Shown here: one piece after another, positions 5,996 to 63,534 of the stretch | Layout: each line of letters opens with the position of its first letter | How positions within the stretch are numbered: position 1 is the first letter of the stretch | Origin: Flavobacterium phragmitis | Lineage (GTDB): Bacteria > Bacteroidota > Bacteroidia > Flavobacteriales > Flavobacteriaceae | Reading direction: 5' to 3' | Length of the DNA stretch: 64,000 nt | Assembly: GCF_900112575.1 (NCBI RefSeq) | Contig: NZ_FOMH01000005.1 | Location: 186,001 to 250,000 of the forward strand | Notes under the pieces: model-generated | Told to the model about the DNA's origin: nothing | Databases searched by the model: none | The model's input: only the letters and a program-made list of their open reading frames with translations | Made by a program: the position numbers and the translations under genes

Positions 5996-5998
5996 TTT

Positions 5999-35625: not shown

Positions 35626-35637
35626 TTGTTTATTTTT

Positions 35638-36588: not shown

Positions 36589-36650
36589 AGTGTTTTTTAA
36601 ATCTCAGGAATGTTTTTTATGAAACATTCCTGAGTAATTATTTAAATGAT

Positions 36651-38021: not shown

Positions 38022-38031
38022 GGTTTTAGGT

Positions 38032-41000
38032 TTAAAATGTTAATTGTGTTCCTAAAGTTATTGTACGCAAAGGAGGTAAAACCAAACCTGGAGCTTCAGG
38101 ATCAAATCCTTTGTATTTCGTAAAAGTTATCAGATTTTGTCCTTGTAGTGTTACACGCGCATTTTTAAGAAATTTTCGCGTGCTTTCATCTAAAGGAATA
38201 GCATAAGAAGCGCTTACATTTTTAAGTTTGATATAAGAAGTATCAGTAAACGTAGCATTTGAAACTATATAATTGCCATAACTTGAAAGGTAATTAGAAC
38301 TTAAGACATTGCCCTGTGCTAAGTAATCATTGTACTCATCTACCTGAAAGTTTGCAAGTCCGTATGGATACCCTGGCTGTATGCCTGTAGTTGACATTAA
38401 AGTTCTTCCGGATTGTTTTACAAATTGGAATAAAAAGTCAAGCGAGAATGCTTTATAAGAAATTGAATTTGAAATCCCTCCATAATATTTCGGATATGTT
38501 GGTCCATAATATTGTCTGTCACCAACACCAGTATCAGAAAGTCCAGTAGAAATTTTTCCATCTCCATTGGCATCTTCAAATTGTGGTACACCATTTACTA
38601 CGCCGGTATATTTATATAAATATTGACTGTTTAATGGTCTTCCTACAACATATTGTGAGTAGTAACTAGTATTTTTTATACCATCAAATGATAATAATTT
38701 ATTAGAATTAGTTGAAATATTAAAAGAGGTTGACCAATTAAGGTTTTGCGTTTTAACGTTTGTCGTTGAAAGTGTAAACTCCCAGCCTTTGTTTTCAACA
38801 GCTGCACCTAAATTAGCGGTATAAGTTGTAAATCCTGCTTGTGGGCTAAGGGTATAATTAACCAATTGGTTGTCTGAAATGTTTCTGTAATAGGCGGCAG
38901 TAAAAGAAATACGGTCATTTAAGAAATTTAGATCCATAGCAGCTTCAAATTTTTTAGAAACTTCCCATCTATAATTCGGATTTGCAATTCGGGTTGCTGA
39001 CATAGAAGCATTTCCGTTTCCGTAAGTTCCTGTAGAATAGGTGTCAGCATATCCGTAATCTCCAATACCATCACTTCCCACTTCTCCATAACTTGAACGA
39101 AGCTTACCAAAACTTAGCCACGAGTTGTCTTTTAAGAAATCTTCTTCCGTAAATACCCATGCAGCACCAATAGAACCAAAATTTCCATATTTATTATTTG
39201 CTCCAAAGCGGGAAGAACCATCTCTTCTAAAATTAATGTTTAAAATATATTTATTCATAACATTATAATTCAGCCTGCTAAAAAGTGATATATATTTATA
39301 TTCAGAGGAACCGTTATATACTTTTACAGTTGTAGCTGTTCCAGTAATACCAATAAGGTTGTCAGCGCTATATACAGAAGAAGTTACATAAGATGGCATT
39401 TCTGATCTTCTTTTTTGATAGGATCCACCTACTAAAGCAGTTAGATTTCCTTTCCACAATGAAGTGGAATAATTCAACTGAGGATCAATAGTGAAATTAT
39501 TAGTATTGTTAGTCGAAACAACATAAGATCTTAACGAGTTTAGACTGATTTTGAGAGCATCATAATAAGCGTAATTACTGGCTGAAGCAGGTTGATATTG
39601 CTCGGAAGTCATTTCTGCAGTTCCATATCCTAAATCAGTTTTAAAAGATAATCCCTTTGCAATTTCATAGTTTACACTAAAACTTGTAATTAAGTTGGTC
39701 CCTTTATCTTCAACTCTTTTTCCTAATGCTGCCAGAGGGTTGATATCACTAAAATAAGTAGAAGCCCAGTAAAAAGAGTCATCTGCGTTATAAATAGGAC
39801 GATTTGGAGCTGTACTTATTGCGTAGCTTGCGATGTCAAAAAATGGCAGTTTATTTTTATCCGTTGCAAAAATTACAGAAGCTCCTATCTTCAGTTTTTT
39901 GTTTAACGTATAATGATTGATGTTAAAATTGGTGGAAAATTTATTGTAGCCAAAATCTCCAGGTAGAACGGTTGTTTCATTATGATAACCAGCACTTAAT
40001 AAAAAGTTTGTAGTGTCATTTCCACCTTTTAAGCTTGCAGAATAATTATTGAAATTAGCCGATCCGCCAATTAATAAATCCTGCCAATTAGTATATTGAT
40101 TAGGATCCCAGTTTGTTAAAGCTATTCCGGTACTAGAGTTACTTGCATTTGCATTTGCATTTGTTAAGGCAGTTTGTAACATGTTAAGATAAGCAGGCGT
40201 ATCTAAGGTTCTAACTCTATTGGCAACTTGAGAAATTCCTGAGTTAGTACCTATAGTAAATTCTGTTTTACCTGCTGAACCTTTTTTAGTAGTAATAAGT
40301 ACTACACCATTTGCACCTCTGGATCCATAAATTGCAGTTGCATCTGCATCTTTAAGAATTTCAATACTTTCAATGTCATTAGGATTAAGAATGTTTAAAG
40401 GGCTTGTTGATTTTTGTGCTCCTCTAATTGCATATGGCTGTTGATTATTTGTACCTACACCCGTTTGTTGTGCCTGTTCTTTTATATCATCACCAATATA
40501 TGGAACTCCATCTACAATGTAAAGAGGAAGAGTCTCTGCAGCAAGAGAGTTTCTTCCGCGAATACTGATATTAATATCACTCCCTGCATAACCAGATGTT
40601 TGAGATACAAATACACCAGGTGTTCTTCCTTGTAAACTTTGTAAAATATTAGTTATAGGTTGTTTTTGAATGTCTTCAGATGTGATTTTAACTACAGATC
40701 CTGTAGAAGTTCTTTTTGTTGTTGTACCGTATCCAATAATTACAACCTCGTCTAACTTTGCCAAATCGGGTTGCATTTTGATGGTAACTGTGGTTTGGTT
40801 TTCTACGGTAACTTCCTGTGTTTTGTATCCTAAATAAGATATTTTTAAGACATGTTTTCCTTTTGGTAATTCGATAAAAAACTGTCCGTCAAAATCAGAT
40901 ATTGCTTGTTTATTGCCTCCTACAACTGCAACAGAAACACCTGGAAGAGGCTGTCCGTTTTCGTCCAGCACTTTTCCGTTAAGCATAATAGTAACTTCTT

Positions 41001-41448
41001 CGGCATTTTCTTTTTTTTCGGTATTTACAGCAATTTTAGCAACTTCTTTTTTATAAATCACGACATTTTTATCCACCTGTTTGTATACCAGATTACTGCC
41101 CTGAAATACAATATCCAGAATATCGCTTACACTTCTGCTGCCTCTTGGAGTAGTAACTTTTGGGAAATCTTTTATGATCTGTGGCTGATAGGCGAACAAT
41201 AATCCTGTTCTGTTTTCGATAGTTTTAAATAGCGTTTTAATATCCTGATTATGTAATTCAATGTCAACAGATATTGACTCTAAGTTCTGACCACTCATTT
41301 CAGTTGCGAAAATCATATGAGTGCCGCAGGTCAGTAAGAAAATGTGGAATAAACTGATTCGCATAATCATAATGGTTTTTTTTGACAAGTGAAAAAAAGA
41401 CGAATTCTTTTCACTGTCAAACATGGTTGTTTTACAGCGTAATTTCAT
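38032..41448 (-). CDS. SusC-like TonB-dependent transporter with N-terminal STN (signal-transducing) domain
   Basis: Outer-membrane transporter of 1138 residues. A long N-terminal region with a hydrophobic stretch (LFHIFLLTCGTHMIFA) precedes an STN/secretin-like domain (about 58-134, VDIELHNQDIKTLFKTIENR). Next come a carboxypeptidase-regulatory domain (about 150-235), the plug (LQGRTPGVFVSQTSGYAGSD, ATAIYGSRGANGVVLITTKKG) and the barrel. Internal starts at Met27 or Met29 are possible. STN-type transporters signal substrate binding to a FecR-like anti-sigma factor, and such a gene lies directly upstream, so self-regulation through the ECF sigma factor is expected. Confidence 0.95.
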   Translation of the reverse strand: MKLRCKTTMFDSEKNSSFFHLSKKTIMIMRISLFHIFLLTCGTHMIFATEMSGQNLESISVDIELHNQDIKTLFKTIENRTGLLFAYQPQIIKDFPKVTTPRGSRSVSDILDIVFQGSNLVYKQVDKNVVIYKKEVAKIAVNTEKKENAEEVTIMLNGKVLDENGQPLPGVSVAVVGGNKQAISDFDGQFFIELPKGKHVLKISYLGYKTQEVTVENQTTVTIKMQPDLAKLDEVVIIGYGTTTKRTSTGSVVKITSEDIQKQPITNILQSLQGRTPGVFVSQTSGYAGSDINISIRGRNSLAAETLPLYIVDGVPYIGDDIKEQAQQTGVGTNNQQPYAIRGAQKSTSPLNILNPNDIESIEILKDADATAIYGSRGANGVVLITTKKGSAGKTEFTIGTNSGISQVANRVRTLDTPAYLNMLQTALTNANANASNSSTGIALTNWDPNQYTNWQDLLIGGSANFNNYSASLKGGNDTTNFLLSAGYHNETTVLPGDFGYNKFSTNFNINHYTLNKKLKIGASVIFATDKNKLPFFDIASYAISTAPNRPIYNADDSFYWASTYFSDINPLAALGKRVEDKGTNLITSFSVNYEIAKGLSFKTDLGYGTAEMTSEQYQPASASNYAYYDALKISLNSLRSYVVSTNNTNNFTIDPQLNYSTSLWKGNLTALVGGSYQKRRSEMPSYVTSSVYSADNLIGITGTATTVKVYNGSSEYKYISLFSRLNYNVMNKYILNINFRRDGSSRFGANNKYGNFGSIGAAWVFTEEDFLKDNSWLSFGKLRSSYGEVGSDGIGDYGYADTYSTGTYGNGNASMSATRIANPNYRWEVSKKFEAAMDLNFLNDRISFTAAYYRNISDNQLVNYTLSPQAGFTTYTANLGAAVENKGWEFTLSTTNVKTQNLNWSTSFNISTNSNKLLSFDGIKNTSYYSQYVVGRPLNSQYLYKYTGVVNGVPQFEDANGDGKISTGLSDTGVGDRQYYGPTYPKYYGGISNSISYKAFSLDFLFQFVKQSGRTLMSTTGIQPGYPYGLANFQVDEYNDYLAQGNVLSSNYLSSYGNYIVSNATFTDTSYIKLKNVSASYAIPLDESTRKFLKNARVTLQGQNLITFTKYKGFDPEAPGLVLPPLRTITLGTQLTF

Positions 41449-41497
41449 AAATTTGCTTGTTTTTTAATGGTTACTGGATTAATTGTTAAAAATCTTG

Positions 41498-41523
41498 GCC
41501 ATCTGGTGTAGGAGCTGGATGGC
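41498..41523 (-). other. Stem-loop in the susC leader
   Basis: GCCATC (41498-41503) pairs with GATGGC (41518-41523). On the minus strand, the direction of susC, the stem is followed within a few bases by a T run (complement of 41487-41492). It lies 50-75 bp upstream of the susC start. It could be a fecR terminator or an attenuator; the stem is only 6 bp. Confidence 0.35.
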
Positions 41524-41620
41524 TTTTTTAATTTAGTTTTGGTTAATTGGTCTTTGTTTTTAAGGTTAATATTTATTTTCAAAGCTTTCTAAGTAGGAGG
41601 TTAGTCAGCCTTATCTCTTC

Positions 41621-41704
41621 TCTATATTCTATATTCTATATTCTATATTCTATATTCTATTTTCTATATTCTATTTTCTATTTTCTATTTTCTATTTTCT
41701 CTTT
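41621..41704. repeat. Heptanucleotide tandem repeat between fecR and susC
   Basis: Eleven consecutive 7-bp units, TCTATAT (units 1-5 and 7) or TCTATTT (units 6 and 8-11), with a degenerate twelfth unit running into the fecR stop codon. It occupies a third of the 254-bp fecR-susC gap, upstream of susC on the minus strand. Confidence 0.95.
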
Positions 41705-42746
41705 ATTCACAGCCTTTCCCGTCCAAAATGACATTTCCGGCTTTATTGTAACGATATTCTGTTTCGATAACACTGCTGATTACCTTCAAGACATGATCTA
41801 AATCTTCTTCATTTAAGAAACTGGCAGTAATTCGGCAATTCTTAATTTTTTCATTCGAGATTAAAATCTGCACTTTATATTTTTGAGCTATTAATGAAAC
41901 AGCTTCAGCCATATTCAAATCATCCAGAATCAGGTAATTGCTTTTCCATTCGGTTACAATAGCCGCACTTACATTATTTTGTTCAAAGTTCAAAGTGCTT
42001 TTGTTTACTTTAATCTGCTGATTTGGAGTGATTACGCCATACACTTTTTCAACATCTCCAACCTGAACTTTACCACGTGCAACAGTAACTTCGATATTGT
42101 CTGAAGAATTTTGAGCATTAATATTAAAAGCAGTTCCTAAAACTCTAGTCTGAATTTTACCAGTATGTACGATAAATGGTTTTTCGGGATTGTGTTTAAT
42201 GTCAAAAAAAGCTTCTCCAGTTAAGGTAACTTCACGAGTTTTGGAGTCAAAAGAACTTTGATCGTATTTCAACGTACTGTTATCATTTAACAACACTGTA
42301 CTACCGTCTGGAAGATGAACCAATTGTTTACCGCTAAAGTCAATTAAAGTATTTTGCGCTACAGCAGCTGGTATTTCAGTTGTAATAGTTGGAACTGTTG
42401 CTTTTTGCTTAAAGAAGAATGAATTTCCCAAAGCAATTAATAAAGCAATACTTGCCGCTGCAAAAAGCGATCGTAAAACGATTTTTCTTTTTCGTTTTGG
42501 ATTTAAATCGACCACTTTAGGTTCATTTTGCGGTTTAGATAAAATATAGTTCAGAATATCGTCACTCTGTTTTTTATCCATTACATCTGTAACATAATCA
42601 CTTTTCAGCATCTCATGAATTTTTTCCTTCAGAAAATCGTCATGCTCGCCCTGCTGCATTATTTCCATCATTTGCTGCTGTTCCGCATCAGATAGATTAT
42701 TCTGCAGATAGCCTTCAAATAACTCTTCGAACTTTTTTTGCTGCAT
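41703..42746 (-). CDS. FecR-like anti-sigma factor
   Basis: Inner-membrane regulator of 347 residues. The cytoplasmic N-terminal segment (about 1-85) would bind the sigma factor; one membrane helix follows at about 89-108 (VLRSLFAAASIALLIALGNS). The periplasmic FecR domain includes VHLPDGSTVLLNDNSTLKYDQ and VTLTGEAFFDIKHNPEKPFIVHTGKIQTRVLGTAFNI. The C-terminal DUF4974-like domain (MAEAVSLIAQKYKVQILISNE) is the part expected to meet the STN domain of SusC. It lies between the sigma gene and susC, the usual order for this signalling cascade. Confidence 0.95.
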   Translation of the reverse strand: MQQKKFEELFEGYLQNNLSDAEQQQMMEIMQQGEHDDFLKEKIHEMLKSDYVTDVMDKKQSDDILNYILSKPQNEPKVVDLNPKRKRKIVLRSLFAAASIALLIALGNSFFFKQKATVPTITTEIPAAVAQNTLIDFSGKQLVHLPDGSTVLLNDNSTLKYDQSSFDSKTREVTLTGEAFFDIKHNPEKPFIVHTGKIQTRVLGTAFNINAQNSSDNIEVTVARGKVQVGDVEKVYGVITPNQQIKVNKSTLNFEQNNVSAAIVTEWKSNYLILDDLNMAEAVSLIAQKYKVQILISNEKIKNCRITASFLNEEDLDHVLKVISSVIETEYRYNKAGNVILDGKGCE

Positions 42747-42794
42747 TTGTTTCGTTAATTAAATTAGTACTTGTTTGTAAATGATAGTTTGGAG

Positions 42795-42821
42795 TTTTTT
42801 TTTTTTTTTTTTTTTTTTTTT
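42795..42821. repeat. 27-nt poly-T (poly-A on the coding strand) tract between sigma and anti-sigma genes
   Basis: An uninterrupted run of 27 T on the plus strand. It is 49-75 bp upstream of the fecR start, in its probable leader. The same 230-bp gap also has three direct GTAAAAAAAT-like copies (42918-42942). Confidence 0.9.
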
Positions 42822-42976
42822 CAGCCCTTCTAATTTTAGGGATAGAACACGTTTTAAATGTTCCTTTTATATAAAGACCATTTAAAAAAGGGGAGGGAGT
42901 AGTTGAAAGTGAAAAAAATGTAAAAAAAATGTAAAAAAATGTAGTTCTTGGCTTTTTTGAAAGAAAAAACTTTAGT

Positions 42977-43564
42977 CTAGAACTTTAAAAATAGCAGTAA
43001 TGACATGAACATATTCATGTACGGAGAAATTTTAAGACGTATAAATTTTAAAGCCTGAGCCATGTGTTTTTTTACCGTCTCGGTTGAGATGCCCAAATCT
43101 TCACCAATTTTTTGATGACTAAGGCCGTCTATTTTAGCCATTTGATAGACTTTTTGCTGTTGAGGTGGCAACTGTTCAACGATTTGATTTAAAATCGTAT
43201 TGTACTGTTCATCTTTGATATTGCTGTCAGTATCAATAATTCCAGCTTCTTTCTGATTGAATTCGGCTATTTGACTCGTTTCTCGTGCGATTTTTTTAAT
43301 CGAATTGAACAAATGATTGCGTGAGATTATATAGAGGTAATTTTCAAAATGAGTTACTTCTGCTAAATTCTCGCGATTTTGCCATATTTTTAAAAAGATG
43401 TCCTGAACAGCTTCTTCTGCTTGAATTTTCGATTTTGTAATTCGTAAAGCAGTAGAATACGCATTATTTTTATATTGATTGTACATATTGGTAAACGCAA
43501 CCTCACTTCCTTGAGACAATTCAAGAAGAAGTTTTTTTTCGTCTATATTCGAATTTTGAGCCAT
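42977..43564 (-). CDS. ECF RNA polymerase sigma factor (Bacteroidota FecI-like type)
   Basis: 195-residue sigma factor. Region 2 is about residues 15-85 (FTNMYNQYKNNAYSTALRITKSKIQAEEAVQDIFLKIWQNRENL), and region 4 is about 130-185 (QLPPQQQKVYQMAKIDGLSHQKIGEDLGISTETVKKHMAQAL). Followed by fecR and an STN-type susC, it is the probable activator of that operon. The gap of 230 bp to fecR is unusually long for a sigma/anti-sigma pair. Confidence 0.95.
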   Translation of the reverse strand: MAQNSNIDEKKLLLELSQGSEVAFTNMYNQYKNNAYSTALRITKSKIQAEEAVQDIFLKIWQNRENLAEVTHFENYLYIISRNHLFNSIKKIARETSQIAEFNQKEAGIIDTDSNIKDEQYNTILNQIVEQLPPQQQKVYQMAKIDGLSHQKIGEDLGISTETVKKHMAQALKFIRLKISPYMNMFMSLLLFLKF

Positions 43565-46758: not shown

Positions 46759-49700
46759 ATGACTAGGATATTACTATTTCTTTACTTTTTCACAATATAT
46801 TCATTTGGGCAACAGATAAAGTTTGAGAATTTTACCACCAATCAAGGATTGTCCAACAATTCTGTAGTCGATATAGAAAGCGACAAAGAAGGCGGATTGT
46901 GGATTGCGACTTGGGATGGCTTGAACTATTTTGATGGTTATACTTTTAAAATTTTCAAAAATAATAACAATGATCCTAAAACAATTTCGAGCAACTACAT
47001 TACTAAATTAGAAAAAGATTCAGAGGGAGTTATTTGGCTGATTACCAAAGAAGGTCATGTAAATCGATATCTGGGGAATAATGAGTTTCAGGACTTTAAA
47101 TTCAAAAGTCTTCCAACAAATATTTATTTATCTCAAAAGGGAAATATTGTCGTAGAAACGGGGAAAAAATATTACGAACTCAAGAATAAATCTTTTGTTG
47201 AAATCCAGCAGAATAGCATCAAAACAACGGATTTTAGAAATCTGAAAAATATACTGCTTAGAAAATATCCAAATCTCAGAATCAATGATATTCTAAAAGA
47301 TAAAGCGGGAAATATCTGGTTTGCGACTCGGGAAAACGGATTGTATATTATCACAAATGAATCGGACGAAAACAATATACAGCATTTTACATCCGATTTA
47401 TATTCGCCTTATTCCTTCAAAAACAATGAAATAGAAACCATTCATGAAGACAATTTCGGAAATATTTGGTTAGGACAGAAAGATGGCGGATTAAGCATGG
47501 CATACAGCGGTTCTGAAAAAATAAATTCGGTTATGCCACATCCGGTGAAAGAGCCTAATCTTCCAAATGAAACTATCAGAGCTGTAACCAAAGACAGTAA
47601 AGGAAAAATCTGGCTGGGTTATTATACCAGAGGTCTTTTTTGTTACAATGAAAGAAGTCATTTTTTTGAAAAGTTTAAAATAGATAAAGCTGTTTCGAGT
47701 CCAGATTGGGAAAGAATACGAACTTTATTTACTTCCAGCGATGGAACGGTCTGGGCAGGGACTTATGAAGGAATTCTGCGCATTTCGGATCAGAGTGTTA
47801 CAAGTTTTGAAAAGAACAGTATTCCGGGAATGTCCATCAGCAGATGTTATTCTATTTTCGAAGATCAAAACAAACAGCTTTGGATGGGATGCTGGGGCGG
47901 TCTGGCTAAATTTAATATGGTTACTGGAAAGTTTGAAAACTTTAGAGGACAGGAATTGTTTAGTAAATATCATATAAGATGTGTAAAAAAAAGCAATCAG
48001 AATCTGATACTGGCAACAGAAAACAGTGGTGTTGTTGTATATAATTTAGTTACCGGTACATTAAAAAAAATAACAACCAGAGAAGGAATTTTAGGAAACA
48101 GTATTTATTCTGTTTTTGTGGATAATGAATCAGATAATTATTGGATTGCTTCTTTGGGTGGCGTAACTATTTTTAATAAGAGAAAAGGTGTCGTAAAAAA
48201 CATTACAGAAGCTGAAGGACTGCCAAGTCACATGGTTTATGGACTTATCGATAATGGCGATAAAGTTTGGTTAAGTACTACAAAAGGAATCGCTTCTATC
48301 GACAAGAAAAGCTATTCTGTTACTTCTTATAATCCGCATTATGGCTGGCAGGCGCCTGAGTTTTCGGAAGGTGCTTATTATCAGGATTCAAAAGGGAATT
48401 TATTTTTCGGCGGTGTAGGCGGACTCAATTACTTTAATCCCAATACTATTCAAGGTAATAATGCAAAAGCAAAAATAAAATTGAAGGTCGATGGAAGTGA
48501 AAGTTATTTGTCGGCCATTGAAAAAGGGTTTAGTGATAATGAATTAAAAATCGAAGTCATCCCGATTATATTTCCCAACAGCAGAAGAAATAATATTTAT
48601 TACAAACTAGAAGGAAGAGACGAAAATTGGTTTTTACTTCCTGCAGACAATAAAATTGAATATGCAGGTTTGTCTTCTGGTGATTATAGTTTTCTTATAA
48701 AAGAAGGAATAGACGGCATTGCTGAACCTGCTTTTTTTACGCTTCACATTACCGAAGCTTTCTACGAGTCTATTTTGTTTTACATTTTATTATCTGTTCT
48801 TATATTGTTGAGCTGTCTGGTAGTGATTTATATCAAAAATAAAACAGCTCTGGCACAGCAGCAATATATGGAAGAGCTGGTAAAAGCACGAACGGCTGTT
48901 ATCGAAAATCAGAAAAAAAATCTGGAAGAAATTAATGCAGAACTCGATCAGAAAAGTAAAAAAATTGAGGAACAAAAAGAAAAACTGCTCATTCTCCATA
49001 GTAATTTAAAAAAAGAAAATTTCGAGATTGAAAAATTCAAAACCTTTATGTTGGCTGAATTTCAGGAACCCATATCGCGAATAATTAAAACTTCCAGCTC
49101 TTTAAAAAAAGATACCGAAATGCAGCGGGCTTTATTAGCTGAATCAGGTAAACTGCTCAATCTTATTTCGGAATGGAATTATCTGGAACAGGTAAAAGAT
49201 TTGGGGTCTGTAAAGAAAACGGCAGTGAATTTGTTTCCTGTTTTAAAAAACAATGTCGAAAAACTAAAAAAAGATTCACAGCTTAATCAGGTGAATTTTA
49301 ATTGTGAAATAGACAATTCAGATTGTTTTGCAGCTGTAGATGTTTTGCGTTTGAAACTTTCGCTTCAGTATTTTTTTAATGACTTAAGTAAATATTCTGA
49401 CAAGGATAGTACTTTGAATATTTCGATTACTTATGAGAATGATTGTATCGAAATAAAGACCATTTCGGATAGTGTTATTTTAAAGGATAATTGGTACAAT
49501 ATTTTACACTACAGTCCCTATTTTAAAGCTTTAGAAATTTTGCTTCAAGATTTGAATGGAGAAATTATTTCTTCGTCTGAAGAACAATTTCAAGCCAAAT
49601 TGCGAATCCCAATCGAAGTTGTCGATTCTAATGAGAATTTAAAAGAAACTATTTCCTGGAAAAACTTTAATCACCAAGATCAGTTTTCTCCAGATAAAAA

Positions 49701-50457
49701 ATGTCTTTTGGTTTTTGGTGATCCGTACAATACTCCTGCAGCGAATCAGATTTTGGAAAGCAAAAAATACAATTTGATTTTTGAGAGTTCTATTTCAAAT
49801 TTAAACGCCATAATTAAACAGACAGAAATTGCAGCGTTAGTTTTCTATCAGGCAGAATTCTCCAGAGAGCTGATTAATTTTCTAAAACAGAATAGAGAAA
49901 ACAGCGCGGTAAAAATTCCACTCATCTATATATCTGAGAATATTAACTACGAACAAGACGAACAATTGTTGGAATTGGGTATTGATACTCATATTAAACT
50001 GCCGGCTAGTTTATCATTTATCAGCAAAAAGATTAATAGGTTGATCAATCAAAACAGCGAACCAGTAAAAGAGTATAAAATCCAGCAGAAGATATTCGAG
50101 ATTCTGACAGAAAATAATGAGAATATCACGGCTAATGAAAAGCTTCTCAAAAAGGCTTTGGAAATCATTAAAGAAGAATTGCAGAACCCCGCTTTTAATG
50201 TTGAAATGATGGGCGAACAATTAGGGATTTCTAGGGTAAAATGCTATCGTTTGTTTAAAGAAACTTTGAATCAGTCTCCATCAGATATTTTAATGTCTCT
50301 TCGCTTGCAAAAAGCCGAATTACTATTAAAAACTAAAAAATTGAACATCTCTGAAATCAGTTTTGAGTGCGGTTATAATGATCCAAAATATTTTGGTCGC
50401 TCTTTTAAGAAGTATTTTGGCAAAAGTCCGAAGGAATATAAAGAATATTCGCTTTAG
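46759..50457 (+). CDS. Hybrid two-component-like sensor/AraC regulator with degenerate kinase and receiver modules
   Basis: Start chosen at ATG 46759, where a clear signal peptide begins; an upstream TTG at 46738 is possible. Residues are counted from 46759. About 20-595 form a periplasmic two-component-regulator beta-propeller (repeats such as GNIWFATRENGLYIITN and GTVWAGTYEGILRIS). About 600-665 is a Y_Y_Y domain, about 672-693 the membrane helix, then a coiled coil. The kinase module lacks key residues: the H-box position reads LAEFQEPIS (Ala766 instead of His), the N-box Asn is Asp (FFNDLSKYS), and the G boxes are absent. In the receiver the phospho-acceptor position is Gln1031 (VFYQAEF). 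The last 110 residues are an intact AraC HTH. It lies 177 bp upstream of susC and probably regulates it. Confidence 0.9.
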   Translation: MTRILLFLYFFTIYSFGQQIKFENFTTNQGLSNNSVVDIESDKEGGLWIATWDGLNYFDGYTFKIFKNNNNDPKTISSNYITKLEKDSEGVIWLITKEGHVNRYLGNNEFQDFKFKSLPTNIYLSQKGNIVVETGKKYYELKNKSFVEIQQNSIKTTDFRNLKNILLRKYPNLRINDILKDKAGNIWFATRENGLYIITNESDENNIQHFTSDLYSPYSFKNNEIETIHEDNFGNIWLGQKDGGLSMAYSGSEKINSVMPHPVKEPNLPNETIRAVTKDSKGKIWLGYYTRGLFCYNERSHFFEKFKIDKAVSSPDWERIRTLFTSSDGTVWAGTYEGILRISDQSVTSFEKNSIPGMSISRCYSIFEDQNKQLWMGCWGGLAKFNMVTGKFENFRGQELFSKYHIRCVKKSNQNLILATENSGVVVYNLVTGTLKKITTREGILGNSIYSVFVDNESDNYWIASLGGVTIFNKRKGVVKNITEAEGLPSHMVYGLIDNGDKVWLSTTKGIASIDKKSYSVTSYNPHYGWQAPEFSEGAYYQDSKGNLFFGGVGGLNYFNPNTIQGNNAKAKIKLKVDGSESYLSAIEKGFSDNELKIEVIPIIFPNSRRNNIYYKLEGRDENWFLLPADNKIEYAGLSSGDYSFLIKEGIDGIAEPAFFTLHITEAFYESILFYILLSVLILLSCLVVIYIKNKTALAQQQYMEELVKARTAVIENQKKNLEEINAELDQKSKKIEEQKEKLLILHSNLKKENFEIEKFKTFMLAEFQEPISRIIKTSSSLKKDTEMQRALLAESGKLLNLISEWNYLEQVKDLGSVKKTAVNLFPVLKNNVEKLKKDSQLNQVNFNCEIDNSDCFAAVDVLRLKLSLQYFFNDLSKYSDKDSTLNISITYENDCIEIKTISDSVILKDNWYNILHYSPYFKALEILLQDLNGEIISSSEEQFQAKLRIPIEVVDSNENLKETISWKNFNHQDQFSPDKKCLLVFGDPYNTPAANQILESKKYNLIFESSISNLNAIIKQTEIAALVFYQAEFSRELINFLKQNRENSAVKIPLIYISENINYEQDEQLLELGIDTHIKLPASLSFISKKINRLINQNSEPVKEYKIQQKIFEILTENNENITANEKLLKKALEIIKEELQNPAFNVEMMGEQLGISRVKCYRLFKETLNQSPSDILMSLRLQKAELLLKTKKLNISEISFECGYNDPKYFGRSFKKYFGKSPKEYKEYSL

Positions 50458-50578
50458 ATTTTCTGTTAGCCCTGTATTTGCATAAAGTTAGGCTAATGTT
50501 AATGTACAAAATTCACCCTTTTTCAGCGTTAATTCTATCCTAAATTGAATTAAAAGTCCTCTTTTGAAAAACAAAAAT

Positions 50579-50611
50579 CCTCCTTTTGGAGGGATCGTTA
50601 AAATACTTTTG
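50579..50611 (+). promoter_or_regulatory. Promoter region of the second susC with overlapping hairpin
   Basis: TACTTTTG (50604-50611) is an exact TANNTTTG match 23 bp upstream of susC. A hairpin CCTCC-TTTT-GGAGG (50579-50592) covers the -33 region; its TTG is only 15 bp from the -7 element, shorter than usual. A weak -33 fits a promoter that needs the neighbouring AraC-type activator. Confidence 0.55.
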
Positions 50612-50634: not shown

Positions 50635-53604
50635 ATGAAAAAAATTTATGCATTGCTAATTCTTGCCTTCGGATGTATGTCATACTCCTATGGGCAGATA
50701 AATGTATCAGGAATTGTAGTTTCTGATGTTGAAAAAGTACCAGTTCCTGGTGTTTCTGTTTATATTAAAGGAGAACCAAAAGGAGCAGTTACAACAGATT
50801 TTGATGGAAATTTCAAAATTAAGGCACAACAGAATGAAGGTGTTTTGGTTTTTTCTTATGTTGGATTTAAAACAAAAGAGGTTTCTTTCTCAGGTACTCA
50901 AAAACTAACTGTTTCTTTAGCAGAAGAGATAAGTACCTTAAATGAAGTAGTAGTGGTTGGTTACGGTTCTCAAAAGAGATCTGATGTAACGGGTGCTATT
51001 GGTTCTGTAAAAAACGAAAATTTCAACAAAGGAGTTGTAGCCAATGCAGGGCAATTAATTCAAGGTAAAGTTGCCGGAGTTAATGTAATGGCTGCTAGTG
51101 GCGAGCCAGGAGCTAATCAAGATATTATTATTCGTGGAGTTGGAAGTTTACGTTCTGGAACAACACCTCTTTATGTAGTAGACGGATTTGTTCTTGATAA
51201 TTCTAGTAATGGTGTTGCTACAAACCCTTTAAACTTTATCAACCCGCAAGATATCGAGAGCATTGATGTTCTTAAAGATGCTTCTGCAGCGGCTATTTAC
51301 GGTTCTAGAGCGGCAAATGGAGTAGTGGTAATTACAACTAAAAAAGGTTCAAAAGGGCAGTCAAAAATTAACCTTTCTATGACTACTGGTTTTTCTTCTT
51401 TAGCCAATAAAGTAGATGTTTTTAGTGCAGATGAATTTAGAAAACAAGTTACTGCTGTGAACGGAACTTTACAAGATGGAGGAGCAAATACAGACTGGCA
51501 GGATGAATTAACAAGAACAGGAGTTTCTCAAAACGTTAATTTATCGATGAGTGGCGGAACTGAAAAATCTACTTACGCAGCTTCTGTGGGGATGGATAAT
51601 CAGGAAGGTATTTTTCAAAATAGTGATTTAAAACGTTATTCAGGACGTTTGAATTTGAACCAAAAAGCATTAAACGATAAGTTTAATATTGCCTTTAACT
51701 TGACAGCAACTAAACTTGAAAATTCAAGACCAGATGCAAGAAATGTTGTTGGAAATATGTTGACATTGAATCCAACGGATGCAGTATACGTTAACGGACA
51801 GCCAAATGTTAACTTAAGCAACGATGCTGTAAATCCTTTAATCAGCCAAAGAATTTATTCTGATGAAACAAACAACAATCGTATTCTTGCGAACATTAGC
51901 CCATCATACGAATTTATAAAAGGATTAACGTATAAATTTAATCTTGGAGTTGATTATTCTATGTCTGAAAGAGACATTCAAGTTTTGCCATATACTTCGG
52001 CTACTAATACAACTGAAAGTACTTTGAACGACATTGTTACGAATAATAATAACGTTTTGTACGAAAACACTTTGACGTATAACTTCAATGTTAAGAAACA
52101 TAACTTTACGGTTTTAGCCGGTCAATCTTACCAGAAAATACAAGTGAATCAGAAGAATTATGATTTTAAAGGATTTCCGGATAATGGTGTAGAGCCAAAA
52201 AATCAAATTGGAGCAGCAGCTGAGCTTAGAAGAAAATCTTCATCGGCAATAGAAAATGAGCTTCAGTCTTTCTTTGGTAGATTAAACTACGGATATGATA
52301 ATAAATATTTATTAACTGCAACTATGCGTGCAGATGGTTCTTCTAAATTTGGTAAAAACAACAGATACGGATATTTTCCATCTGTAGCATTAGGTTGGAA
52401 TATTACAAAAGAAGATTTCTTAAAAGAATCTGAAACGCTGAACAACTTGAAACTAAGAGCAAGCTGGGGGCAGACTGGTGTTCAAGAGATTCCTTCAAAA
52501 ATTACCAAAACAAGTTATACAGAAAGCAACAGTGGCTATGATACGTATCCGCTAGATCCAAGCGATACAGATTTAGCTAGTTATCCTTATGGTTCAATCT
52601 ATACTCGTTTAGCAAATCCAAATCTGCAATGGGAAGTTTCAACACAAACAAACGTTGGTTTAGATTTTAGTTTATTCAATAGTAGATTATCAGGTACAGT
52701 AGATTATTTTAACAAAGTTTCAGATAATATTTTGTTAGAGGTTGCGCCTGTAGATCCTATTCAGCCTGCATCAAAGTATTGGACAAACATTCCTAATATG
52801 GAAATCCAAAACAACGGTATTGAAGTTGCTTTAGATTACAGCAGTGATAAAAGTAAAGACTTCTCTTATAGTATTGGAGGAAATATATCTTTTACAAACA
52901 ATAAAGTAGTAAACTCTCCTTATAAAATATTGACAACTGGAGCGGCGCAAGGAGGCGGACAGACTGGCGCAACTATCAACGGAGTTTTAAACGGGCATCC
53001 AATTGGTTCTTTCTACATGCTTGATTTTACAGGAATAGGTCCTGATGGTCAAAATCAGTTTGCAGATACAAATGGAGATGGTTCTATCCTTGACAACGAT
53101 CGTATTGTTGCAGGAAGCGCATTACCAGATTATATCTATGCTTTTTACTTGAATTTGAAATACAAGAATTTTGATTTTGTTGCTAATTTTAATGGTGCAG
53201 CCGGAAATAAAATTTACAACCACGTTGCGATGACTTCATTCAATAGAGGAAATTTAGCAAACTCTTTTAATACGACAGACAGAGCTTCACAATATTTAAA
53301 CGAAGCCTCTACAAACTCTAATACAGTTTCTACAAGATACTTAGAAGATGGAAGTTTCTTAAGATTAAATAATGCGAGTTTAGGATATAATTTAAGCCCA
53401 AAATTAGTTGGACTTGGAGATGTAATGGACAATATTCGTCTTTCTGTAACAGGTCAGAACTTATTTGTAATTACAAAATACAGCGGTTTTGATCCTGAAA
53501 TTAATACTGGAACTTCTGTGGGTGAAATTCAGTCTTTTGGTATTGATTATTTCAGTTACCCAAGAGCGAGAACCATTGTATTTGGCTTAAACGTAGCATT
53601 TTAA
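50635..53604 (+). CDS. SusC-like TonB-dependent outer-membrane transporter
   Basis: 989 residues with a signal peptide (to about residue 20, SYGQ), a carboxypeptidase-regulatory-like domain (about 22-100, VSGIVVSDVEKVPVPGVSVYIKG), a plug with LIQGKVAGVNVMAASGEPG and AAAIYGSRAANGVVVITTKKG, and a barrel ending RTIVFGLNVAF. It is followed by susD after 16 bp. With the regulator upstream and the phosphodiesterase-phosphatase downstream it forms one locus. The substrate is not evident from the barrel sequence. Confidence 0.95.
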   Translation: MKKIYALLILAFGCMSYSYGQINVSGIVVSDVEKVPVPGVSVYIKGEPKGAVTTDFDGNFKIKAQQNEGVLVFSYVGFKTKEVSFSGTQKLTVSLAEEISTLNEVVVVGYGSQKRSDVTGAIGSVKNENFNKGVVANAGQLIQGKVAGVNVMAASGEPGANQDIIIRGVGSLRSGTTPLYVVDGFVLDNSSNGVATNPLNFINPQDIESIDVLKDASAAAIYGSRAANGVVVITTKKGSKGQSKINLSMTTGFSSLANKVDVFSADEFRKQVTAVNGTLQDGGANTDWQDELTRTGVSQNVNLSMSGGTEKSTYAASVGMDNQEGIFQNSDLKRYSGRLNLNQKALNDKFNIAFNLTATKLENSRPDARNVVGNMLTLNPTDAVYVNGQPNVNLSNDAVNPLISQRIYSDETNNNRILANISPSYEFIKGLTYKFNLGVDYSMSERDIQVLPYTSATNTTESTLNDIVTNNNNVLYENTLTYNFNVKKHNFTVLAGQSYQKIQVNQKNYDFKGFPDNGVEPKNQIGAAAELRRKSSSAIENELQSFFGRLNYGYDNKYLLTATMRADGSSKFGKNNRYGYFPSVALGWNITKEDFLKESETLNNLKLRASWGQTGVQEIPSKITKTSYTESNSGYDTYPLDPSDTDLASYPYGSIYTRLANPNLQWEVSTQTNVGLDFSLFNSRLSGTVDYFNKVSDNILLEVAPVDPIQPASKYWTNIPNMEIQNNGIEVALDYSSDKSKDFSYSIGGNISFTNNKVVNSPYKILTTGAAQGGGQTGATINGVLNGHPIGSFYMLDFTGIGPDGQNQFADTNGDGSILDNDRIVAGSALPDYIYAFYLNLKYKNFDFVANFNGAAGNKIYNHVAMTSFNRGNLANSFNTTDRASQYLNEASTNSNTVSTRYLEDGSFLRLNNASLGYNLSPKLVGLGDVMDNIRLSVTGQNLFVITKYSGFDPEINTGTSVGEIQSFGIDYFSYPRARTIVFGLNVAF

Positions 53605-53620: not shown

Positions 53621-55363
53621 ATGAAAAATAAAATAATAATAGCTGCTCTTGCATTAGGTATATTGTTTACCTGGAGCTGTACTGACTTAGAAGAAAAGAT
53701 CCTTGACGAATCCTTAAATGGTGCAGGACAAGCAGAAGTAATCAGTGGTGCTATTGCTCCAGCTTATGGACAATTAAAAGCAACATGGTACCATACCAAT
53801 AATTTTGGTTTACAGTTAATTGCCAGTGATGAAGGTATTTTACCTTACAGAGGAGGAACAGATTGGTACGATGGAGGTAAATATTTAGCAGTACATGCAC
53901 ATACTACAACGCCTACTAATGACTTGGTTACCAGTACTTGGAATGCTCTTACTAAAAATATTTCCAGAACATTATCTGCTATTGAAGTATTGACTCCTCT
54001 TGCAGAAGGAGGAAATACAGAAGCAAAAGGAGCTCTTTATGAAATGAAAGCCTTAAGAGCTTATTTAAATATGCAGACATTAGACAGCTGGGGATTGGTG
54101 TTTAAAAAAGAGTCATCGGCTAGTACTTCTGAAATTCTTCGCGGACAAGATGCTGTGACTTACATTGAAAATGAATTACTTTCTGTTGCTGATGTAATCA
54201 ATACAGATAAAGGTCCAGGAAGAATGACTCAATCTGCGGTTTGGGGACTTCTTGCGAGATTAAATTTAAATGCGGCAGTATATCGTGATCCTTACGGAGT
54301 ACCTTCATTTACTCCAGCAGATATGGATAAGGTTATTAAATATACAGATAATATTATTAACTCTGGTAAATACAGTTTTTCTCCTGAGTATTTTGACTTA
54401 TTTGATGACAGCAATGACAAAAACAAAGAAGTAATCTTTTCAATAGATCAGCGTGGAGTTTTAGCTGATGAGCACAACCGTTGGGCATATTGGTCAATTC
54501 CGGGTTCTATGTTCCCAAGACCTGAGTCTATCAATGCAGATGGTACCGATGGTCCCGCTATTACTTCAGATTTTTATCAAACATGGGTAAGTGCTTATGG
54601 TACTGTAGATCCAGCCGATGCTGATTCAAGATTTTATAAAGACAATGCAAAAGTACCAGCACATTTGAAAGATCTTACAGGGTTCTCTCCATTAAATGAT
54701 GAAAATCACTACTATTGCGTTAAAGCTGAAGATTTTGAAATAGACAGAGGAATTATGAGAGGTATTCCTTGGGCTGCCAGAAAAGACAATAATGGAGCAT
54801 TCTACAAATGCGATGGCGGATACAGAATTTATCCAGTAAAACAAATTAAAGGAAATGGCCCTGATAAAAACGTTGGTTATGTAAACCTTACAGAAAAAGT
54901 TGATTTCACTAAAGAAGGAAGTATGCACTATTCTGGATATAGAGTATCGAAATATCAATTTAGCCACACTTCTCCTGATGGGAATACATACAGCAGTGTA
55001 GACATGGTAATGCTGAGATATGCTGAAATCTTCATGATGCGTGCTGAAGCTAAATTGAGAAAAGGAGATAACGCTGGTGCATTAGCCGATATGAATGCAG
55101 TTAGAACCTCAAGAACGGCTCGTGCTCCAATTCCTGCTGCGCTTCCAGCAATTAATTTAGATATTTTGTACAGAGAATATGGTTTCGAATTTTACTGGGA
55201 AGGTTTAAGAAGAAATACTCAAATCCGTTTCAGTCATTTTGAAGACAAATGGACTGAAAAATCAGATGCAGATGTAAACAAGAGATTGTTCCCAATTCCA
55301 CAGGTAGCAATTGATGGAGCATCTAATACTCCTGGTTATTTAGTACAGAATAAAGGATACTAG
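53621..55363 (+). CDS. SusD-like glycan-binding lipoprotein
   Basis: 580-residue lipoprotein with the lipobox FTWSC (Cys20). RagB/SusD features are EMKALRAYLNMQTLDSWGLVF, the C-terminal MLRYAEIFMMRAEAKLRKGDNAGALADMNAVR, YGFEFYWEGLRRNTQIRF, and LFPIPQVAIDG. The segment SDEGILPYRGGTDWYDGG is shared in outline with the partial SusD at the right end (TDESILPSRGGNWFDN), so the two are probably paralogues. Two terminators follow it. Confidence 0.95.
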   Translation: MKNKIIIAALALGILFTWSCTDLEEKILDESLNGAGQAEVISGAIAPAYGQLKATWYHTNNFGLQLIASDEGILPYRGGTDWYDGGKYLAVHAHTTTPTNDLVTSTWNALTKNISRTLSAIEVLTPLAEGGNTEAKGALYEMKALRAYLNMQTLDSWGLVFKKESSASTSEILRGQDAVTYIENELLSVADVINTDKGPGRMTQSAVWGLLARLNLNAAVYRDPYGVPSFTPADMDKVIKYTDNIINSGKYSFSPEYFDLFDDSNDKNKEVIFSIDQRGVLADEHNRWAYWSIPGSMFPRPESINADGTDGPAITSDFYQTWVSAYGTVDPADADSRFYKDNAKVPAHLKDLTGFSPLNDENHYYCVKAEDFEIDRGIMRGIPWAARKDNNGAFYKCDGGYRIYPVKQIKGNGPDKNVGYVNLTEKVDFTKEGSMHYSGYRVSKYQFSHTSPDGNTYSSVDMVMLRYAEIFMMRAEAKLRKGDNAGALADMNAVRTSRTARAPIPAALPAINLDILYREYGFEFYWEGLRRNTQIRFSHFEDKWTEKSDADVNKRLFPIPQVAIDGASNTPGYLVQNKGY

Positions 55364-55626: not shown

Positions 55627-57420
55627 ATGAAAACATCATTTTTATTCATCTGGCTATCCTTGTTTTTCTGGGGAGCAGGTGATCAGTTATATTCTCAGAA
55701 TTTAGTTACTGTACATTCTCATAACGATTATGAACAAGCCGTTCCTTTTTGGAATGCTTACGCGAATGGAGCATCATCGATAGAAGCCGATATTTTTTTG
55801 AAAGATAATATGTTATATGTCTCTCATGATCAAAAAGGAATTGCTGCGACAAGAACTTTAGAAGATTTGTATTTAAAACCGTTAGAAACGGCTCTAAAAA
55901 TGAATTATAAAAAAGAGCAAAAATTAGTTTTACTGATTGACATTAAAACAGAAGCAGTAGCTACTTTAGATAAACTTATTGCTGTTCTAAAAAAATATGA
56001 GACCATCACAAAAAATAAGGATACTAAAATCGTTATATCTGGAAACAGACCAGACGCAGAAACATATAAAAAATACCCTGATTTTATCTGGTTTGATTTT
56101 CAGGGAATAGACCAAACGATTTCAAAAGAAAACTGGGAAAAAGTGACCATGATCAGTTTCGATTATAAAAAATATTCGGTTTGGAATGGTTTAGGCAGAT
56201 TAACGCATGATGAGCGTAATCGGGTAAGTTCAATTATTGCTAAAGCAAAAAGCTTAAACAAACCATTTCGTTTTTGGGGTTGTCCAGACACTAAAACAGC
56301 ATGGAAAGCATTTTTAGAATTGGGAGTTGATATCATTAATACTGATTCACCTTATAATTGCGTTCAGTATCTACAGTCTTTACCAAAGAGATTGGTTACA
56401 GCAACCAACTCTTCAAAAGTGTATGTTCCGACTTATAAAACGGATCAAAAAGAGACTCCTGTAAAAAATGTGATTCTTTTAATTGGAGACGGAAATGGTT
56501 TATCACAAATTTCCTCAGCTGTTTTGACTAATAATGGCGCTTTGTCTGTAACGCAGATGAAAAGCATCGGTTTCATAAAAACACAATCAGCAGATGATTT
56601 CACAACCGATTCTGCTGCTGCGGGCACGGCATTGGCAACAGGTCAGAAAACAAATAATAGAGCAATTGGAACAGATAGTCTGCGCAAACCAATTCCGAAT
56701 ATTTTAGAAGTATTGCAAAAGCGAAATTTTTCTACAGGAATTATTACAACAGATGAAGTTACAGGAGCAACACCAGCGGCTTTCTATGCTCATACCGAAG
56801 AAAGATCGAATACAGAAATAATAGCGCAGGATTTATTTAAAAGCAAATTGAATCTGTTTGTAGGAGGCGGTGCTTCTACTTTTAAAAATATAGCATTATC
56901 TTCAAAATTCAAATTATTGAATACGGTACAGGAGATGCAGACCGAGAATAATGATGCGGTAGGTATTTTCATTTCGCAGCATAAAGTTCCATCTGTTTTA
57001 GAAGGAAGAGGAGAAGTATTGGCCGATGCCGTAAAATACAGTTTGGAATTTTTAAACAAAAAGAACAAACCTTTCTTTTTAATGGTAGAAGGTGCACAGA
57101 TTGACAGTTTTGGTCATGTGAACAATGCTGCAGGAATCGTAGCTGAAACCATAGATTTTGATACAGCCATTACTCAGGCTTTACTATTTGCAGATCAAAA
57201 CGAAGGAACATTGGTTATCGTTACGGCGGATCATGAAACTTCTGGTTTTGCCATTCCGCAGGGAAATGTAAAACAGCATAAAGTGGAAGGTGATTTTATT
57301 ACTACAGATCACACCGCTACTATGGTTCCTATTTTTTCTTATGGACCGCATTCAAAAGATTTCCAGGGTGTTTATGAAAACAACGAAGTATTCCATAAAA
57401 TACTTTCAGTCTTGAAGTAA
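55627..57420 (+). CDS. Secreted fusion of a glycerophosphodiesterase/PI-PLC-like domain with alkaline phosphatase
   Basis: 597 residues with a signal peptide (to about residue 24). About 26-255 are a GDPD/PI-PLC-like barrel: HSHNDYE (H30-E35), SIEADIF (E53, D55) and VSHDQ (H67) match the catalytic and metal positions. About 277-597 are an alkaline phosphatase: LIGDGNG (Asp288), the nucleophile Ser329 in TTDSAAAGTALATG, and metal ligands in QIDSFGHVNNA, TADHETSGFA and TDHTATMVP. Together they could cleave a phosphodiester and remove the remaining phosphate in one exported enzyme. It follows susCD of the same locus after two terminators. Each domain is clear; the substrate is inferred. Confidence 0.9.
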   Translation: MKTSFLFIWLSLFFWGAGDQLYSQNLVTVHSHNDYEQAVPFWNAYANGASSIEADIFLKDNMLYVSHDQKGIAATRTLEDLYLKPLETALKMNYKKEQKLVLLIDIKTEAVATLDKLIAVLKKYETITKNKDTKIVISGNRPDAETYKKYPDFIWFDFQGIDQTISKENWEKVTMISFDYKKYSVWNGLGRLTHDERNRVSSIIAKAKSLNKPFRFWGCPDTKTAWKAFLELGVDIINTDSPYNCVQYLQSLPKRLVTATNSSKVYVPTYKTDQKETPVKNVILLIGDGNGLSQISSAVLTNNGALSVTQMKSIGFIKTQSADDFTTDSAAAGTALATGQKTNNRAIGTDSLRKPIPNILEVLQKRNFSTGIITTDEVTGATPAAFYAHTEERSNTEIIAQDLFKSKLNLFVGGGASTFKNIALSSKFKLLNTVQEMQTENNDAVGIFISQHKVPSVLEGRGEVLADAVKYSLEFLNKKNKPFFLMVEGAQIDSFGHVNNAAGIVAETIDFDTAITQALLFADQNEGTLVIVTADHETSGFAIPQGNVKQHKVEGDFITTDHTATMVPIFSYGPHSKDFQGVYENNEVFHKILSVLK

Positions 57421-60244: not shown

Positions 60245-60460
60245 ATCAATACTTAATTACGATTAATCCGTATATAAAGAAAAAATTAACTAATTCTTGA
60301 TAAACAAAACCTAAATAACAACTAAAATATGAAATGAAATCTCCACGAAAACGATTTATTAGTAAGGATTTAATTATAGAAAAAAATAAAAATAACTTCG
60401 CTAAGCCTTGCTATCACTGACTTTATTGAAATTATCCATGTTTATGAATAACTTGTCCAT

Positions 60461-60489
60461 TTGTTAACATTTCATTAGCACTAATTTCG
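60461..60489 (+). promoter_or_regulatory. Candidate promoter of the third plus-strand susC
   Basis: TTG (60461-60463) and TAATTTCG (60482-60489, one mismatch to TANNTTTG) with an 18-bp spacer, 33 bp upstream of susC. The rest of the 278-bp gap is AT-rich and empty. Confidence 0.45.
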
Positions 60490-60522
60490 TCATTACTATG
60501 TAACCAATTAACCAATATCACA

Positions 60523-63500: not shown

Positions 63501-63534
63501 AACATATATGTTTGGTTTAAATGTGATCTTCTAA
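60523..63534 (+). CDS. SusC-like TonB-dependent outer-membrane transporter
   Basis: 1003 residues: signal peptide (to about residue 21, TWAQ), carboxypeptidase-regulatory-like domain (VSGVVLDDKGVPLPAANVLEKG), plug with LLQGKVSGLNISSSGDP and ATAIYGNRAANGVIMVTTKKG, and barrel ending TYMFGLNVIF. It begins 278 bp after GH89 and is followed after 19 bp by a susD start. The GH89 neighbour suggests oligosaccharides with alpha-GlcNAc. Confidence 0.95.
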   Translation: MEKLKLLLLAFCFGFSMNTWAQKTEVSGVVLDDKGVPLPAANVLEKGTMNTTSTDFDGKFKISASNKNATLIFSFMGFDDQPVKLDGTKTTYSIRLQPTTTSLEQVVVVGYGKGSRKNLTTSVTSVKAEDLNRGAISDVGQLLQGKVSGLNISSSGDPTKTASVVLRGASTLNSSQGPFYVIDGIPGVDISVIAPDDIATIDVLKDAAATAIYGNRAANGVIMVTTKKGSKGRTQIAYNGYMGWEEVSNNLDMMNADQLRAFTTKNNLNFTPENDKGANTNWQKEILRPGRAASSSHNLSMSGGGDHGNYTASITSFNKEGVMQKSDFSRIIARLSVEQFAFDDKVKFGLNVTNSTTKYQNVPQRNTVLLQAASYLPISPVKNADGSYFENFVSTGYFNPVALIQHGTDETKTDNLVGNLTAEVKLPFGITYNLNLAHQRLTASHGEFYDSYYSQYNSANFYNNPDPPLTKTLVNFGVNGSALRNSYETRNNIIESFFTWDRTFGEHKIKAVAGYSWQENTLGDGFQATTTNFPVDNVGYNNLALSNYTSVNGYVVNFGDSKAYQKTRLIAYFARLNYNYKDKYLLQGSIRRDGGSMFGENNQWGYFPSVGGAWRLDKENFMKNQNFFSDLKLRGSWGVTGNSSGFNAYTAQFISGSLGTFYYNGQQIGAYGPNQAANPDLKWEKTATANIGLDFSILKGKVTGSVDVYDKKTTDMIFNYNVNPVLVPVGTIVANGGTMSNKGIEVSLSTTPVKTADFSWTTNLNLAHNKNEIVKLTSPFFVGGDSIRRVQPDGGGQTGSTLQIFKEGKPLGQFFTLKYAGKDANGVSQYYDKNGDLTTTPQIGVDYHYAGSAQPKLLMGWANNFQYKKFDLSIFFRGVFGNKIFNATRADLFRPSTAMTTNILVDAGNESPNDLNAYRYSDRFIEDGSYVRLDNMTLGYNFGKVGRYISSVRVYQTINNVFVITKYKGIDPEVEQGGTAPGVDSNNFYPKTRTYMFGLNVIF

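Follow-up and report, generated by a model that had tools for sequence, protein, structure and literature searches.

Hybrid two-component systems (HTCSs) such as BT4663 and BT4124 share a layout of sensor, transmembrane (TM) segment, histidine kinase, receiver and AraC domain, a susCD neighbour, and an operator type built on direct repeats 21 bp apart. Pseudo-histidine kinases and pseudo-receivers are each known separately (PMC12632262); in the titles and abstract beginnings of the literature searched, a coverage that excluded most subscription papers, no HTCS dead in both halves was described. The present analysis concerns a 64,000-nucleotide stretch of the Flavobacterium phragmitis genome (assembly GCF_900112575.1, contig NZ_FOMH01000005.1, positions 186,001 to 250,000 of the forward strand; hereafter the window), in which an uninterrupted frame at 46759–50457 encodes a 1232-residue regulator with the same layout and neighbour and a candidate operator of the same type (window coordinates are on the plus strand unless noted). 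Unlike canonical HTCSs, the family to which it belongs has no phospho-His and no ATP site, lacks a receiver Asp in 38 of 40 members and has its ATP lid deleted. We consider it reasonably probable that this lineage-wide, phosphorelay-free pseudo-HTCS is a membrane one-component activator of a phosphodiester-scavenging operon.

Profile comparison ties the regulator firmly to HTCSs while locating the residues that it has lost. A profile of 40 non-redundant family members, from the window's genus and 13 further genera and with cytoplasmic parts as little as 30% identical, aligned with a profile of 12 paralogues from the same genome over 517 columns (hhalign; Prob 100, E 4.4e-46), with the domains in the same order. 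In this alignment, and in MAFFT as well, Ala766 (49054–49056) lies opposite the phospho-His of the H box, Asp875 (49381–49383) opposite the N-box Asn, and S903-D-S-V-I907 opposite the DxGxG motif of the first G box (G1), with Ser903 on the Asp and Ser905 on the first Gly (49465–49473); compared with the paralogues, the ATP-lid/G2 stretch of the pseudo-CA domain is deleted. The H-box His, the N-box Asn and the G1 glycines are each absent from all 40 members: residue 766 is Ala in 21, Ser in 18 and Thr in one, residue 875 is Asp in 36 and Glu in four, and residue 905 is Ser in every one. Since all 40 members share the kinase losses, these losses exceed chance. The original prediction, made from the letters of the sequence, had named the HTCS layout, the Ala and Asp replacements and the missing G boxes, all of which our alignments reproduce; its further claim that every replacement was a point or local change does not hold, given the deleted ATP-lid/G2 stretch and a linker that exceeds that of the paralogues by about 35 residues.

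Domain searches lead to the same view. A Pfam scan of the regulator (maximum E 10) recovered eight Reg_prop stretches, Y_Y_Y and AraC HTH_18, and between the membrane and the helix-turn-helix (HTH) no HisKA, HATPase_c or Response_reg, bearing in mind that HMMER's filters discard most matches above 0.1. All 12 paralogues, comprising 11 Y_Y_Y frames with HisKA and one frame with another sensor, match HisKA, HATPase_c, Response_reg and HTH_18. Thirteen places in the genome exceed the Y_Y_Y cut-off (11 in HisKA frames, one in a 961-residue frame and one in the window regulator), making the regulator the only HTCS-length Y_Y_Y protein without HisKA in its own genome and, of the 12 Y_Y_Y/AraC proteins of HTCS type there, likewise the only one. 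Across the family, AraC/HTH_18 is found in 40 of 40 members and HisKA and HATPase_c are absent among the best 25 of 29 Pfam families; Response_reg matches four members weakly when each is scanned singly (best E 0.0038).

The receiver has likewise lost its active-site residues. The phospho-Asp was originally placed on Gln1031, and the absence of an Asp there is confirmed, though the position itself varies with the method: Gln1031 is chosen when HMMER compares the regulator with 12aw, an HTCS response regulator, and in one of eight MAFFT runs, while hhalign and seven of the eight MAFFT runs choose Tyr1030 (the canonical Asp could be placed in eight of the 12 paralogues). The third receiver strand of the predicted model ends at 1030, which leaves the placement unsettled. 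Whichever alignment is taken, neither candidate position (49846–49851) is Asp in the window regulator. Residue 1030 is Tyr in all 40 members, and residue 1031 is Gln in 26, Asn in 12 and Asp in two. Leu1081 (49999–50001) lies opposite the receiver Lys in both alignments, and this Lys is replaced throughout the family (39 Leu, one Met). A donor His and an ATP site are missing, and 38 of 40 members have no Asp at either 1030 or 1031; within the regulator, phosphotransfer is thus excluded as far as sequence allows. When contrary cases were looked for, none of the 40 orthologues had its kinase residues intact and no alternative ATP site emerged. His747, the single strongly conserved His in the linker (His in 35 members, Tyr in five), was considered as a displaced catalytic His and rejected, because it sits in the coiled coil and has no ATP site to work with.

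Predicted structures suggest that the folds outlasted the chemistry. The AlphaFold2 model of residues 672–1232 (pLDDT 81.7, pTM 0.58) has histidine kinases as its top Foldseek matches (HK853, E 3.8e-11; YycG, 1.5e-10), with the pseudokinase DivL at rank 11 (E 2.9e-10). By VIA-align it superposes on HK853 with Z 15.3 (rmsd 4.3, 201 residues), on the ArcA receiver with Z 15.2 (rmsd 2.3, 120 residues) and on an AraC-type domain with Z 16.8 (rmsd 1.7, 109 residues); profile matches in the PDB include 12aw (E 4e-39) and the sensor kinase 3a0r (E 7e-4). The kinase, receiver and AraC folds are therefore predicted to be kept. Together with the alignments, these comparisons delimit a pseudo-histidine kinase (DHp-CA, residues 760–955; 49036–49623), with a predicted kinase fold and its catalytic residues lost, a pseudo-receiver (residues 978–1105; 49690–50073), with a predicted receiver fold and conserved active-site residues missing, and an AraC/HTH_18 DNA-binding domain (DBD; residues 1125–1232; 50131–50454; HTH_18 E 1.2e-19).

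The sensor and the DBD had been described as intact, and both look so. The periplasmic part (residues 18–665; 46810–48753), identified by Pfam as beta-propellers followed by Y_Y_Y, yields a confident model (pLDDT 91, pTM 0.85) and, as in canonical HTCSs, resembles the heparin sensor of BT4663 (4a2l; Foldseek E 2.6e-39, sequence profile E 7.6e-92). The protein lacks the phospho-accepting His of HisKA, the N and G boxes of HATPase_c and the phospho-Asp and Lys of a receiver; it keeps a Reg_prop/Y_Y_Y periplasmic sensor, an AraC/HTH_18 output and, between them, homologous kinase and receiver domains in the HTCS order. It is an HTCS by descent, not by chemistry.

Between sensor and pseudo-kinase, the TM helix (residues about 671–695; 48769–48843; hydropathy 3.1, helical in the model) leads into an extended signalling coiled coil (residues 696–765; 48844–49053) of family-constant length. 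Measured by hydropathy, the distance from the TM end to the phospho-His site is 73–78 residues in the 40 members versus 27–49 in the 12 paralogues. The stretch from 672 to 766, that is, from the TM helix to the former H box, is 94 residues in 39 of 39 members (one member, L107, was left out of segment lengths, and L107 and L042 were left out of the sensor alignment). The sensor varies in length, as do the Y_Y_Y region, the DHp hairpin and several linkers. The cytoplasmic model shows a single helix over model residues 2–109.

In the samples searched, the regulator was seen within one taxonomic family. Of 199 genomes sampled from the genus, 16 contain a match at E ≤ 1e-60, and 16 of 397 genomes of the taxonomic family, in 14 of 237 genera, also contain one; the matches in broader samples (five of 395 phylum-sample and six of 296 order-sample genomes) all come from the window's own family, the genomes listed being mostly Flavobacterium. 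The 14 named relatives found in genome contigs are 96–71% identical over their best segment, and all are Flavobacterium or 'Flavobacteriaceae bacterium'. Left out of the 40 were copies with an in-frame stop (L040), a break (L118) or a split over contigs (L054, L060), and four identical to named-genome copies (L046, L047, L049, L050). The ATG start of the regulator is common to most orthologues. A FastTree phylogeny built on the sensor and HTH columns sets the 40 members apart from 11 paralogues by one long branch (support 1.000); a single ancient conversion is the simple reading. Kinase and receiver probably lost their phosphotransfer chemistry long ago and once, the folds being kept as structural parts.

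The regulator gene is under purifying selection. By the Nei–Gojobori method, dN/dS is 0.022–0.093 in the pseudo-kinase (six pairs), 0.024–0.073 in the pseudo-receiver and 0.053–0.100 in the propeller (five unsaturated pairs each), and 0.012–0.043 in the HTH, which is the lowest of six segments in four of the six pairs. Comparison of the window with genome G042 (L045) gives a dS of 0.19 for the pseudo-kinase against 1.15–1.53 for the coiled coil, Y_Y_Y and sensor, which suggests that the regulator gene has undergone internal recombination.

The genes downstream suggest a role in phosphorus acquisition. The regulator is followed by a SusC-like TonB-dependent transporter (50635–53604; TIGR04056, E 2.7e-245), a SusD-like lipoprotein (53621–55363; PF07980) and a protein combining GDPD_2 and alkaline phosphatase domains (55627–57420; PF13653 and PF00245). 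Among 41 loci with long flanks, susC comes after the regulator in all 41 among the open reading frames (ORFs) listed; SusD was recognised in 40, the exception being an ORF in L074, and a homologue of the GDPD_2/alkaline phosphatase lies within the fetched stretch in 39. Of the remaining two, L034 has a GH92 gene instead, and none was seen in L104. Metallophosphatase genes are also present in L073, L078 and L080. Across 101 genomes of the genus, the GDPD_2/alkaline phosphatase is found with at least 53% identity in nine, all of which have the regulator; 16 more contain it at 39–43% identity, and the regulator is present in two of these.

The same pair of Pfam domains, PF00245 and PF13653, makes up PhoA1 (Fjoh_3249) of PUSII, described as a phosphate-starvation locus of F. 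johnsoniae (PMC8115612). Given this shared pair, the locus probably serves organic phosphorus, and with susCD adjoining phosphodiesterase/phosphatase genes in 39 of 41 loci it has the make-up of a PUS-type locus. Other genes of the window and of the sampled loci were seen in passing. An alpha-N-acetylglucosaminidase (NAGLU) gene and a further TonB-dependent receptor follow the phosphatase gene (58070–63534), and a minus-strand cluster of ECF sigma factor, FecR, TonB receptor, SusD-like and ABC transporter genes (33364–43564) looks like a separate ECF-controlled uptake locus. In L104, the local SusC is only 32% identical to that of the window and a second SusC-like gene after the local susCD (L104 13813–15999) is 63% identical to it; SusC types may have moved between loci.

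The susC promoter contains a candidate operator of HTCS type. The gap before susC is 177 bp in the window and 175–178 bp in 22 other aligned loci of the genus. Within it, a repeat search found a proximal direct repeat, a 15-nt unit present twice at a spacing of 21 bp (50552–50587), upstream of TACTTTTG (50604–50611). The latter does not vary among the genus's 23 aligned promoters, and we take it to be a Bacteroidota-type -7 box. When 15-mers were matched within each of 23 promoters chosen to represent lineages (lags up to 44), the best self-match at lag 21 had a mean of 9.87, whereas 100 shuffles averaged 8.02 and reached 8.83 at most. Peaks also occur at lags 11, 22 and 43, the shuffles having been made for lag 21 only, and in several lineages (e.g. 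L078 and L082) the strongest self-match at 21 bp falls at the promoter, not at the proximal repeat. Judged by sequence, then, a direct repeat of about 21 bp stands near susC as a candidate operator, and HTCS sites in Bacteroides are described as direct repeats averaging 21 bp (PMC3878776).

Further upstream lies a distal element with GTTA half-sites at 50465, 50487 and 50498 (22 and 11 bp apart) that ends in TGTACAA (50465–50509). Its pattern has one exact match in the 6.04-Mb genome, two matches with one mismatch (two also for the reversed control) and seven in the window with up to three mismatches, no excess over the 8.16 expected by chance; the weight of the element comes from its conservation, and rarity gives no support. 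A GTTA array with 11/22-bp phasing was seen by eye in several genera, and the distal array may bind a second regulator rather than the pseudo-HTCS. The repeat search also returned a 17-nt pair at 65 bp in the window's susC promoter. No direct repeat was found by this search upstream of the regulator gene, hence no sign of autoregulation, and a Pho-box-like pattern, based on the E. coli consensus, has three matches in the window against 4.25 expected.

Signalling without phosphotransfer is a sensible reading of these data, because the gene is under purifying selection and the AraC domain and candidate operator are kept. A ligand imported by the adjacent SusCD, probably containing a phosphodiester, would bind the propeller/Y_Y_Y sensor, and the resulting change in a dimer would travel along the TM helix and the extended coiled coil to the pseudo-DHp/CA, whereupon the pseudo-receiver would release or re-space two AraC domains on the 21-bp direct repeat upstream of susC, switching on susCD and the GDPD/phosphatase gene; activation rather than repression is presumed throughout. 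The original prediction had proposed such a route through the coiled coil: the loss of phosphotransfer that it assumed is well supported, and we infer the passage of the signal as a conformational change, which fits the 94-residue constancy and the continuous predicted helix.

Several observations sit uneasily with this mechanism. Asp occurs at 1031 in two members (L113 and L114), which do not form a clade in the FastTree phylogeny, and Asp988 of the acidic pair is kept in 25 of 40, so the loss of the receiver is less complete than that of the kinase. Asn occurs at 874, one place before the N-box position, in 33 of 40 members; it was rejected as the N-box Asn since that alignment would disrupt the match of the conserved Lys-Tyr at 878–879. 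The arrangement of the domains is uncertain at a pTM of 0.58, and constant length is not peculiar to the coiled coil, being found also in residues 1060–1082, in the HTH and, in 38 of 39 members, in the CA core. In F. notoginsengisoli (L040 7001–10681) the frame is interrupted by a stop at about residue 1106, and the copy of genome G914 (L118 7566–9410) is broken; both have full-length susC and susD frames downstream, so some species can do without the regulator. In four of 41 loci (L032, L037, L040 and L041, all of one genus), the regulator has a histidine kinase gene upstream of it, on the opposite strand. In addition, Bacteroides HTCSs are reported to keep the DBD off DNA until phosphorylation through an S/CHIP contact between receiver and DBD (PMC11253607). 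The window regulator has VKIP at this motif, and the S/C-H pair occurs in no member (His is at the site in L104 and L106); the loss of this brake pair, like the longer coiled coil a departure from canonical HTCSs, counts against the proposed mechanism as regards the restraint of the DBD without signal. A small subset of ordinary HTCSs is likewise reported to lack the motif (PMC11253607).

Alternatively, the former CA and receiver sites may have been repurposed as pockets that bind a cytoplasmic nucleotide, inorganic phosphate or an organophosphate as a second, internal input. Y1030, E1060 and P1082, in or beside the former receiver site, are invariant in all 40 members, as are D861, K878, Y879, S905, S919 and P920 in the pseudo-CA; 13 positions at or around the receiver site, a set chosen post hoc, are more conserved than random picks (p 0.0017), and known pseudo-receivers are reported to bind ligands (PMC12632262). 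However, conservation at the five presumed catalytic sites is not significant (p 0.077), the paralogues retain D861 and K878 too, the ATP lid is gone, and the conservation may be structural, all of which makes this reading unlikely. A broader version, which we find similarly improbable, would make the regulator a phosphorelay turned one-chain allosteric machine, its dead domains serving as rigid transmission plus a second pocket, so that periplasmic phosphodiester and internal phosphorus are read together and the AraC domain is gated without phosphate transfer.

The upstream kinase genes noted above, together with the rank of DivL among the fold matches, could instead indicate a regulator that forms a heteromer or works under another histidine kinase, in the manner of DivL and CckA, its dead domains modulating or contacting that kinase. 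The four upstream kinases belong to one family (the L041 copy is at 5374–6741), and a scan of the remaining 37 loci and the rest of the window recognised no kinase gene (BLAST; ORFs of at least 150 codons, E 1e-6; ten flanking proteins from five loci were scanned with Pfam); a conserved partner next door was therefore rejected. The regulator also has an AraC output of its own, and 38 of 40 members lack a phosphate-accepting Asp at both 1030 and 1031, so that a partner kinase seems quite unlikely. It is very improbable that the sensor is silent and the protein, constitutively DNA-bound, only maintains basal susCD expression: phosphotransfer and the S/C-H pair of the brake are indeed lost, and S/CHIP substitutions are reported to let the DBD bind DNA unphosphorylated (PMC11253607), but the sensor is constrained (dN/dS 0.05–0.10 in the five unsaturated pairs), has many invariant residues and is predicted to fold with high confidence. 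Gene decay, already dismissed in the original prediction, or a single degenerate allele is scarcely credible despite the two damaged copies, since 40 members down to 30% cytoplasmic identity share the losses under strong purifying selection.

A phosphorelay-free pseudo-HTCS resembles several described systems in part. SusR is not known to have a kinase. Like the window regulator, SusR-like regulators place a periplasmic sensor and a cytoplasmic DBD on one chain (PMC3878776). The SusR DBD is described as having no significant similarity to other families, with sites 67 or 77 bp apart (PMC3878776), whereas the window regulator has HTH_18 and a full pseudo-kinase and pseudo-receiver; its candidate repeats upstream of susC stand at 21 bp and at 11 and 22 bp, beside the 17-nt pair at 65 bp. 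Pseudo-histidine kinases such as DivL and the pseudokinase version of ChrS (PMC9491836) keep the kinase fold and lose the catalytic residues, as here, but DivL acts on a separate kinase, whereas the dead kinase of the window shares a chain with its own DNA-binding output. The pseudo-receivers ChxR, GlnR and ShkA similarly have a receiver fold without phosphorylation residues (PMC12632262, PMC4395418); unlike these, the window pseudo-receiver shares its chain with a dead kinase and a periplasmic sensor. PUSII of Flavobacterium johnsoniae, likened to this locus by domains, also has susCD next to an enzyme with this Pfam pair, but its listed regulator is FecR-like (PMC8115612, Table 1) and the window locus has a pseudo-HTCS in its place.

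These comparisons bear on whether HTCS signalling needs phosphotransfer or whether phosphorylation overlies a conformational path from sensor to DBD, a question that matters for major regulators of glycan loci in Bacteroidota. A family from which the chemistry has been removed, with domains, neighbours and candidate operator kept, offers a direct test object, and it appears to be tied to the uptake of phosphodiesters rather than of plain glycans.

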